A stretch of DNA of 64,000 nt from Arthrobacter sp. NicSoilC5 (GTDB lineage Bacteria; Actinomycetota; Actinomycetes; Actinomycetales; Micrococcaceae), in the NCBI RefSeq assembly GCF_019977395.1, contig NZ_AP024660.1, positions 2,480,001-2,544,000 on the forward strand, given 5' to 3'. Of the stretch, positions 12,613 through 16,173 are shown piece after piece. Every line of letters starts with the position of its first letter. Within the stretch, counting starts at the first letter, position 1. The position numbers were made by a program, and so were the translations under genes. Under the pieces are notes generated by a model, which worked only from the letters and a program-made list of their open reading frames with translations, did not search any database and had not been told where the DNA came from.

Positions 12613-12704
12613 CTGCCGCCGCCCGGTGGTGGGCTTGGGCACCAACGGTGGAACCCGCCGTCGTGCCTTGCTACCTTGGAATTCAAGGCTCCGCACCGGG
12701 GCCT

Positions 12705-12745
12705 CCGGACGACGGTTCAGTACCCGGCACGCGACAAGACTGGCC
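12705..12745 (+). promoter_or_regulatory. Guanidine-III (ykkC-III) riboswitch
   Basis: The leader contains CCGGACGA, then GTACCCGG, then GACAAGAC, in the order and spacing of the conserved guanidine-III aptamer. The two CCGG segments can pair (P1). The loop segment CAGT can pair with ACTG downstream to close the pseudoknot, with bases that differ from the known Thermobifida fusca aptamer but keep pairing. AAAGGA (12746-12751) follows directly, so ligand binding would hide or stabilise the ribosome-binding site region. The next genes are SugE/Gdx-type SMR exporters, the expected targets. Confidence 0.87.
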
Positions 12746-12757
12746 AAAGGAACTGTC

Positions 12758-13081
12758 ATGTCGTGGATAATCCTCATTATTTCCGGGGCGCTGGAGGCTG
12801 TCTGGGCCGCCGCCCTGCACCGTGCTTCCCAGGCTTCCGGACGCCGGCGGGTTGCCCCCGCTGCCCTGTTCCTGGTGGCCGTGGCCGCCAGCACCGGCGG
12901 CCTTGCCGTGGCCATGCAGTCCATCCCCACCGGTACGGCCTACGCCGTGTGGGTGGGTGTGGGCGTGGTCCTCACCTCCGCCTACGCGATGGCCAACAGG
13001 GTTGAACGTCCGACGGCGGCGCGCCTGCTGCTGCTGTCCGGCATCGCCGCGAGCGTGGTCGGCCTCAAGGTGGTGGCGTAA
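12758..13081 (+). CDS. SMR family exporter, SugE/Gdx type, subunit 1
   Basis: A 107-aa protein with four transmembrane helices. It begins MSWIILIISGALEAVWA, the hallmark of the SugE/Gdx subgroup, with the essential membrane glutamate Glu13. GTAYAVWVG is also conserved. Gdx proteins export guanidinium ion in exchange for protons. The ATG follows AAAGGA with six bases between, immediately after a guanidine-III aptamer. The stop overlaps the start of the second SMR gene (TAATG), which suggests a two-component, probably heterodimeric exporter. Longer in-frame extensions upstream would run through the riboswitch. Confidence 0.92.
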   Translation: MSWIILIISGALEAVWAAALHRASQASGRRRVAPAALFLVAVAASTGGLAVAMQSIPTGTAYAVWVGVGVVLTSAYAMANRVERPTAARLLLLSGIAASVVGLKVVA

Positions 13082-13446
13082 TGGTGAAGCGGGGCCTTCC
13101 ATGGTTGGTGCTGCTGGCCTCGGCCGTCCTGGAGGCGGTCTGGGCCACCGCGCTCGGCCTGTCCGACGGCTTCACCCGACCCGTGCCCACCATCGTCTTC
13201 GCCGTCACCGCCACGCTCAGCATGGTGGGACTCGGCATGGCCATCCGGAGCATCCCGCTGGGCACCGCCTACGCCGTCTGGGTGGGCATCGGCGCCGCGT
13301 TGACGGTGGGCTGGGCGATGGCCACCGGCGTCGAACCCTTCAGCGTGGTGAAGCTGCTGTTCATTGCGGGGATCGTGGGCTGCGCCGCGGGCCTGAAGGT
13401 GTTGCCGGCCCAAAAAGATGCGCCGCGGGTGCGCAGCGGTGACTAG
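13081..13446 (+). CDS. SMR family exporter, SugE/Gdx type, subunit 2
   Basis: A 121-aa four-helix SMR protein. The first helix reads LPWLVLLASAVLEAVWATAL with the conserved Glu, and SIPLGTAYAVWVGIGA matches the Gdx motif. It overlaps its partner by one base and has a slightly longer C-terminal tail. Paired SMR genes commonly make heterodimers with fixed opposite topology. Guanidinium export is inferred from the upstream riboswitch and from the subgroup motifs. Confidence 0.92.
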   Translation: MVKRGLPWLVLLASAVLEAVWATALGLSDGFTRPVPTIVFAVTATLSMVGLGMAIRSIPLGTAYAVWVGIGAALTVGWAMATGVEPFSVVKLLFIAGIVGCAAGLKVLPAQKDAPRVRSGD

Positions 13447-15142: not shown

Positions 15143-15199
15143 GGCGCGTTTGCCGAAGCCATCACACCGTATTTTTTGACCGATACCCCTAGGAGCCCC

Positions 15200-15517
15200 A
15201 TGACTGCCATCGTCCATTTTGAAGTCCAGATCGATCCCGCCCGCCGGGAGGACGCCGCCAAGTACCTCTCCGAGACCTTGGCCGCCACCCGGGCGTGGCC
15301 CGGCAACCAGGGGATCGAGGCTCTCGTTGACGACGCGGACCCGTGCCACATCCTGGTGGTGGAAACGTGGGCCACCACGCAGGACCACGACGACTACGCC
15401 GCCTGGCGGAACACGCCGGAAGGCAAGAGCGCGCTCCACGAGATCCTGGCCGGCCCGCCGTCCAAACAGGTCTACTCCACCACCATGCCGCTTGACCTGC
15501 AGCCGTCCGCGGGCTGA
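15200..15517 (+). CDS. Antibiotic biosynthesis monooxygenase (ABM) domain protein
   Basis: A 105-aa small alpha/beta barrel of the ABM/putative quinol monooxygenase family (MTAIVHFEVQIDPARREDAAKYL; HILVVETWATTQDHDDYAAW). The start at 15200 is supported by AGGAG seven bases upstream; the TTG eight codons earlier is rejected. It sits six bases before the MBL hydrolase gene and is probably co-transcribed with it and the aldo/keto reductase. Confidence 0.88.
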   Translation: MTAIVHFEVQIDPARREDAAKYLSETLAATRAWPGNQGIEALVDDADPCHILVVETWATTQDHDDYAAWRNTPEGKSALHEILAGPPSKQVYSTTMPLDLQPSAG

Positions 15518-15522
15518 CGATC

Positions 15523-16173
15523 ATGGACTCACTTCGATATGACCTGCCGGCCCTGACCATCCGCAGCATCTCCGTCAGCGGGATGGACAACAACGTGTAC
15601 CTGCTGACCGCCAAGGAAAGCGGCGAGCAGGTGCTGATTGATGCCGCTGACGATCTCCCGGCCATCCGCCAACTGCTGTCGGACGGGGCTGCGGACACCT
15701 CTGCAGCCCCGCGGCTTGCCCTGGTGGCCACCACCCACCAGCATTGGGACCACGTGCGGGCCCTGAAGGAACTGGTGGAAGCCACGGGGGCGCGGACGGC
15801 AGCAGGGGCGGACGACGCCGATGCGCTGCCGGTCCCGGTGGACGTTCGGCTCAGCCACGGCGACGTGGGCAACTTCGATGGCTTCGACATAACGGCCGTG
15901 CACCTGCGCGGCCATACGCCCGGCTCCATCGCCTTCGTGTACCAGGACCCGGACGGCCCGGCCCACATCTTCTCGGGTGACTCGCTGTTCCCGGGCGGCG
16001 TGGGCAACACGGACAAGGACCCTGAACGGTTCAACCAGCTCCTGTCCGACGTCGCAGAGCGGCTGTTCGGCGCCTACCCGGACACCGCCGTCGTCCATCC
16101 CGGGCACGGCAAGCCCACCACGCTGGGTGCCGAGCGGCCGCACCTCGACGAGTGGCGCGCCCGCGGCTGGTAG
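15523..16173 (+). CDS. MBL-fold metallo-hydrolase
   Basis: A 216-aa metallo-beta-lactamase-fold hydrolase. The metal site reads THQHWDH near residue 72 (first His replaced by Gln in the HxHxDH pattern after the initial His), with HLRGHTPGS, FSGDSLF and VVHPGHG supplying the other ligands. The layout is glyoxalase II-like, so a thioester or similar substrate is possible. The ATG follows the upstream stop by five bases. Confidence 0.9.
   Translation: MDSLRYDLPALTIRSISVSGMDNNVYLLTAKESGEQVLIDAADDLPAIRQLLSDGAADTSAAPRLALVATTHQHWDHVRALKELVEATGARTAAGADDADALPVPVDVRLSHGDVGNFDGFDITAVHLRGHTPGSIAFVYQDPDGPAHIFSGDSLFPGGVGNTDKDPERFNQLLSDVAERLFGAYPDTAVVHPGHGKPTTLGAERPHLDEWRARGW

Follow-up and report, generated by a model that had tools for sequence, protein, structure and literature searches.

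A guanidine-III riboswitch ahead of a polarised SMR gene pair, predicted to encode a guanidinium exporter, in Arthrobacter sp. NicSoilC5

In this work, we have analysed a short RNA and the two overlapping genes behind it in a window of 64,000 nucleotides of Arthrobacter sp. NicSoilC5, whose positions are used throughout. Very probably, a guanidine-III riboswitch here turns on an operon of two genes, A and B, whose products form an antiparallel Gdx guanidinium/proton exporter of fixed topology; this confidence covers the riboswitch and the paired exporter and excludes the start-codon helix described below. As a prediction from sequence, there is strong support for a guanidine switch that controls an exporter of guanidinium with fixed topology. 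ykkC-III RNAs beside SMR genes are already known from a survey of public genomes (PMC8492726); to these the present locus adds an intact switch and a two-gene exporter with polarised subunits, both of them conserved in a genus of soil bacteria.

Results

An earlier note on this DNA, made from its letters, had read a guanidine-III RNA here and proposed a search with the Rfam covariance model. Run with cmscan, that search placed RF01763 (Guanidine-III) at 12683-12748 (+) with 58.7 bits, well above the gathering cut-off of 36, and an E value of 1.4e-9. This is the sole gathering-level Rfam match within the 64 kb window, and no second RF01763 match was found across the 4.69 Mb genome. The resemblance to RF01763 is beyond chance, and the bit score settles the question by itself. 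The expectation that annotation would miss this RNA proved weak, since the 67-position model of Rfam detects it without difficulty.

The three conserved blocks claimed before are read in the sequence, all on the plus strand, as CCGGACGA at 12705-12712, GTACCCGG at 12720-12727 and GACAAGAC at 12733-12740, and the core blocks of the class, CCGGACGA, GUACCCGG and GACAAGAC, are all present. The aptamer core (12705..12745, +), covered by the 58.7-bit match, agrees with the 41-base RNA first described, whose extent has to be enlarged by a 5΄ hairpin at 12686..12704 (+) seen in both the Rfam alignment and the minimum-energy fold. Two CCGG strands, 12705-12708 and 12724-12727 (+), are both read in the sequence and predicted to pair as a pseudoknot. 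The aptamer stem (+) joins 12714-12721 to 12739-12745 with U12717 bulged, according to the Rfam alignment and a constrained fold. Its CAGT/ACTG pairing is kept, as had been claimed, with one non-standard pair flagged in the NC line of cmscan and, when folded under constraint, a bulged U at 12717; the same form is the usual one in the genus and is found in some other families, so that the stem sequence is nothing unusual within the genus. Upstream, TTGCTACCTT (12668..12677, +; TACCTT at 12672-12677) is likely an extended -10 element, with the promoter role inferred. A TANNNT motif 26-52 bases 5΄ of the aptamer is found in every one of the 38 pair loci scanned, and the total over all loci is 60 of 88; its position is -31 to -35 in 23 pair loci with a position listed.

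The RNA is present in 37 of 37 same-genus genomes searched. RF01763 scored above its cut-off in 47 of 59 relatives and in 118 of 296 genomes sampled from the class, both searches having been run with filters able to lose weak matches. By its nearest named relatives, the genome falls in the Arthrobacter/Pseudarthrobacter group. The aptamer core is intact in the window and conserved across the genus. In several loci (L079, L083, L253, L255, L266 and L270) the outer pseudoknot pair is compensated, a GCGG 5΄ strand going with a CCGC 3΄ strand, which indicates that the pseudoknot pairing is kept. In Pseudarthrobacter sp. AL07 (L120, 860-1010) an SMR pair is present and the aptamer has no gathering-level match; compared with L005, the segment between the promoter region and GGCCAAAGG looks deleted, so the strain may have lost its aptamer in nature, or the assembly may be at fault.

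The Shine-Dalgarno sequence AAAGGA, read at 12746..12751 (+) with the ATG of gene A at 12758, follows directly behind the aptamer, as the earlier note had said, and because the aptamer ends beside it, translation control is likely. Such control by the RNA is a plausible prediction by analogy, and it agrees with literature in which guanidine binding folds the aptamer and switches the gene on (PMC12186494, PMC5696562).

The leader has a further property. In the minimum-energy fold, CGCGACA-A-GAC (12730-12740) pairs with GUC-A-UGUCGUG (12755-12765), with the Shine-Dalgarno sequence in the loop. The first of these is the 3΄ aptamer strand CGCGACAAGAC (12730..12740, +), which we propose as an anti-start-codon strand in the OFF state; the second is the GTC-ATG-TCGTG start-codon region (12755..12765, +), complementary to it with one A.A mismatch and one G.U pair. 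The invariant 3΄ strand CGACAAGAC has its complement in GUC-AUG-UCG at the start of gene A, and in a pseudoknot-free fold of the leader in the window, the eight-base block GACAAGAC pairs with the start region at a probability of 0.60.

We counted these features in 71 loci of the genus, 58 short-leader loci of other taxa (leaders of up to 24 nt) and 10 loci with leaders longer than 24 nt, with 41 SMR genes from 40 loci, none having RF01763 at gathering level, and 111 ATG genes of the own genome as controls. The triplet directly 5΄ of the start is GTC in 56 of the 71 genus loci, in 32 of the 58 short leaders from other taxa and in 2 of the 10 long ones; among the controls it is GTC in none of the 41 RNA-less SMR genes and in a single one of the 111 own-genome genes. 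A duplex of -7.4 kcal/mol is reached in 66/71, 35/58 and 1/10 of the three sets, and in 0/41 and 6/111 of the controls. The probability of pairing between the 3΄ strand and the start region in pseudoknot-free folds exceeds 0.5 in 57/71 genus, 29/58 other short and 1/10 long leaders; after own-genome start regions were swapped in, it did so in 15/355, 10/290 and 2/50 cases respectively, and with control SMR starts in 12/355, 7/290 and 0/50. Among genes with the Gdx signature and no RF01763 match (8 loci), GTC precedes 1 of 8 first genes (L151). Shuffled versions of the 3΄ block equalled the real mean complementarity in 2 of 300 trials for the genus and 12 of 300 for the others. The mean energies of the 5΄, middle and 3΄ blocks are -6.3, -8.8 and -12.0 in the genus; in other taxa they are -6.8, -7.6 and -8.4, so that the margin of the 3΄ block is small there.

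Some loci stand outside these counts. Of 80 named loci, 15 lacked the aptamer by text pattern, and Rfam recovers RF01763 in 10 of these 15; the 10, which have diverged cores, were kept out of the 58 and the 71, and their first genes have GTC in 5/10, TCG as codon 2 in 0/10 and -7.4 kcal/mol in 2/10. Another 20 loci were likewise kept out of the helix counts, L081 and L084 out of the leader tables, and L074 was left out because its A and B genes read broken, in a genome (G030) listed with 6% contamination. The sequences are related and collapse to few clusters, which limits the independence of the counts: at 70% protein identity the 58 other short-leader loci form 10 clusters, 4 with GTC and 5 reaching -7.4, and at 80% the genus forms 5, 4 with GTC and 4 with TCG. 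The 41 RNA-less SMR genes are a further limit of the comparison, since judged by position 16 they are mostly (34 of 41) of the drug-export type.

The GTC counts and the complementarity, as modelled, suggest an OFF state in which the start codon is hidden. Our current hypothesis is that in many guanidine-III leaders whose distance to the gdx start codon is no more than 24 nt, among them the present one, the 3΄ strand may double as pocket strand and anti-start-codon strand, a proposal that we regard as evenly poised between right and wrong. Somewhat short of even is the chance that the guanidine-III switch acts instead through Shine-Dalgarno masking or mRNA stability, with GTC-ATG-TCG inherited or otherwise caused. 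Both Shine-Dalgarno release and RNase E protection have been described for the class (review PMC12186494), and the 4 GTC clusters of 10 outside the genus fit that alternative, as does the conservation of codon 2 of gene A, which ranks tenth among the 66 fourfold sites of the gene (median 65%), nine of them being conserved more. The GTC frequencies, high beside the aptamer and near zero in the RNA-less SMR and own-genome genes, speak for the start-codon helix and against masking. So does the choice of codon 2, which is TCG in 57 of 62 TCN cases, whereas TCC prevails at both further TCN serine sites that rank among the gene's twelve most conserved fourfold sites; TCG makes up 29% of TCN codons in 198 sampled genes of the host genome.

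Folding also gave masking no support. When the aptamer stem was forced in pseudoknot-free folds (80 leaders, 42 single-gene and 38 pair), the mean unpaired probability of the Shine-Dalgarno sequence in the 38 pair loci went from 0.56 to 0.45, rising by more than 0.1 in 4 and falling by more than 0.1 in 18, a negative result that is weak because the method cannot score the pseudoknot. It counts against the start-codon helix as well. For that helix, the stability of the whole leader is ordinary (z -1.34, with 23 of 200 shuffles equally good) and was therefore dropped as evidence, and covariation between the 3΄ aptamer strand and the start region was not demonstrable, the strand being nearly invariant. 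A separate anti-Shine-Dalgarno helix seen by eye, CGGTTC of the aptamer with GAACTG 3΄ of the Shine-Dalgarno sequence, was rejected, because many relatives have GGATCTG there and the pairing is lost.

Behind this leader lie the two SMR genes. Gene A (12758..13081, +) codes for 107 aa with an Arg/Lys bias of -5 and a predicted N-out topology, and gene B (13081..13446, +) for 121 aa with a bias of +6, predicted N-in. Both proteins pass the PF00893 gathering cut-off of 23.7 bits (62.3 for A, 63.2 for B), and the genes overlap, as noted before, by the single base 13081 within TAATG (13079-13083). A search of the genome at E up to 0.001 found no SMR gene besides these two. The Gdx motifs reported for both were borne out, in that the pocket residues E13, W16, S42, Y59 and W62 (Gdx-Clo numbering) are kept in each. 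The best solved relative of both is 6wk5, aligned over nearly the full length and named as Gdx-Clo in PMC9574504. The NCBIfam SugE equivalog NF008512 is the top NCBIfam match for both, though at 71.3 (A) and 61.8 bits (B) below its cut-off of 126, and A and B were not assigned to that equivalog.

The gene layouts behind 90 aptamer loci (98 minus 8 shorter copies of loci that were represented twice) comprise 39 intact SMR pairs, 42 single SMR genes, 8 loci where no SMR gene was found and one broken locus (L074). Within the genus, 36 of 38 genomes have the pair, one a single gene and one the broken locus. EWSYW occupies the five pocket positions in 120 of 120 subunits. In all 39 intact pairs the bias of the first protein is negative and that of the second positive, the weakest being L083 with -1/+3, and in the 36 same-genus pairs it runs from -4 to -7 for A and from +1 to +8 for B; in 42 of 42 single-gene loci it stays within ±1. 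These results support the heterodimer suggested in the earlier note, and they parallel published figures, according to which SMR pairs have biases centred on +4/-4 and opposite in more than 95%, singletons centre on zero, and about 20% of Gdx are encoded as such pairs (PMC9574504).

With the full EWSYW pocket in both proteins each could in principle work alone, so A and B might form separate dual-topology homodimers instead of one A/B pump; given the opposite bias in every intact pair, its absence from the single genes, and a reported 3% of singletons beyond ±2 (PMC9574504), we consider this very unlikely. Least probable of all is that the pair has a different substrate, for example quaternary ammonium drugs, with the aptamer match a relic, a reading favoured by low-scoring Qac/Ebr models among the NCBIfam matches and by the missed SugE cut-off and opposed by W16 and S42 (position 16 is A or G, drug-exporter-like, in 34 of the 41 RNA-less SMR genes), by Gdx-Clo as the closest solved match and by the intact aptamer core conserved in the genus. 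The A/B heterodimer that exports guanidinium is our preferred reading.

In a tree of these proteins the 36 same-genus A genes fall on a single branch (100/100), and the branch that holds the B genes also includes two from other families (100/94). The more distant G041 pair stands apart on long branches, which makes its placement unsure, and since the alignment is short (110 columns) the deep forks are unresolved. One genome of the genus, G032, has at L073 a single unbiased gdx gene behind an aptamer with a different stem; this gene clusters with single genes from other families (82/94, the fork being open) and may be a replacement by transfer.

Guanidine-III aptamers also precede other genes. 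At L071 (2173-2513, -), L053 (1516-1834, +), L267, L263 and L269 they lie 16-23 nt 5΄ of small membrane proteins, all matched by a profile built from the L071 and L053 proteins, which themselves pass the cut-off of the NCBIfam CBU_0592 family; the proteins at L042 and L262, which start alike, are candidates for the same type. From its sequence context, this type of protein is possibly another guanidine transporter or an accessory protein, and our literature search found no paper combining CBU_0592 with a riboswitch. Six aptamers (L071, L256, L257, L264, L265 and L269) share a variant core, which on its 3΄ side ends in GACGACGC and for which the alignments listed show a C.A position in the stem; all six score above the RF01763 cut-off. 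Behind this core lie CBU_0592-like genes (L071, L269), genes for metallo-beta-lactamase folds (L256, L257) and, at L265, a gene for an isochorismatase-domain hydrolase nearest to biuret amidohydrolase and below the cut-off of that model; the variant raises the question whether the ligand is the same. Three further aptamers (L032, L034, L041) stand ahead of arginase-family, agmatinase-like enzymes, in agreement with the speB genes reported in PMC2864571.

Around the locus, a HutD-family gene lies upstream, and a nucleoside/nucleotide kinase family gene and an aldo/keto reductase lie downstream. At 15176-16170 (+) the window has two genes that are ordinary by Pfam, one with an ABM domain (15176-15514) and, behind it, one for a hydrolase with the metallo-beta-lactamase fold (15523-16170). 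Elsewhere in the same genome (L191, G000 3210000-3226000), a permease (TIGR03428), two associated proteins (TIGR03425, TIGR03424), a urea-carboxylase-family protein (TIGR02712) and an allophanate hydrolase (TIGR02713) are adjacent and all above cut-off. We take this, from the models matched, as a guanidine/urea-type carboxylase operon; for some 75% of the carboxylase genes of this kind, guanidine is the predicted substrate (review PMC12186494). No guanidine riboswitch was found at this operon with Rfam at E up to 1, and the lone Rfam match listed there, to an unrelated sRNA model and below its own cut-off, was set aside.

Discussion

We propose that the aptamer would bind guanidinium and so raise expression of the operon, and that the exporter would expel guanidinium in exchange for protons, both steps being carried over from work on these families. 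In the ligand-free RNA, the 3΄ strand CGACAAGAC may, with about equal chances for and against, pair with GUC-AUG-UCG and bury the start codon of gene A; on binding, the strand would be held in the pseudoknot and triplex, and the start would be freed. Translation of gene B would be coupled to that of gene A at TAATG.

Only the start-codon helix is a possibly new part of the locus. If the dual role of the 3΄ strand is true, the aptamer would be its own expression platform and TCG at codon 2 would be under RNA selection. Excerpts of the crystal paper state that binding destabilises competing structures, which they leave unnamed, and report, on the basis of previous in-line probing, that P1 and P2 are formed even when guanidine is absent (PMC5696562), which speaks against the helix; the helix, if true, would name the OFF state left open there. 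Complementarity to the start codon was not found named in the excerpts of guanidine-III literature searched.

For the rest, the locus is a good but ordinary representative of a known type of system. With the guanidine-III class (ykkC-III, RF01763) its RNA has in common the score above cut-off, the conserved blocks, the CCGG/CCGG strands, the stem, the 5΄ hairpin and the placement directly ahead of the Shine-Dalgarno sequence of an SMR gene, and it differs from the class in its GGUUCAGU/ACUGGCC stem with the U bulge. Like the paired Gdx-subtype SMR transporters (PSMR heterodimers), A and B come from adjacent genes, have opposite Arg/Lys bias and keep the pocket in both subunits, and they differ from them in nothing basic. 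With Gdx-Clo (PDB 6wk5) both share the near full-length alignment and the equivalents of E13, W16, S42, Y59 and W62; whereas in Gdx-Clo one protein forms a homodimer (PMC9574504), A and B would divide the work over two polarised subunits.
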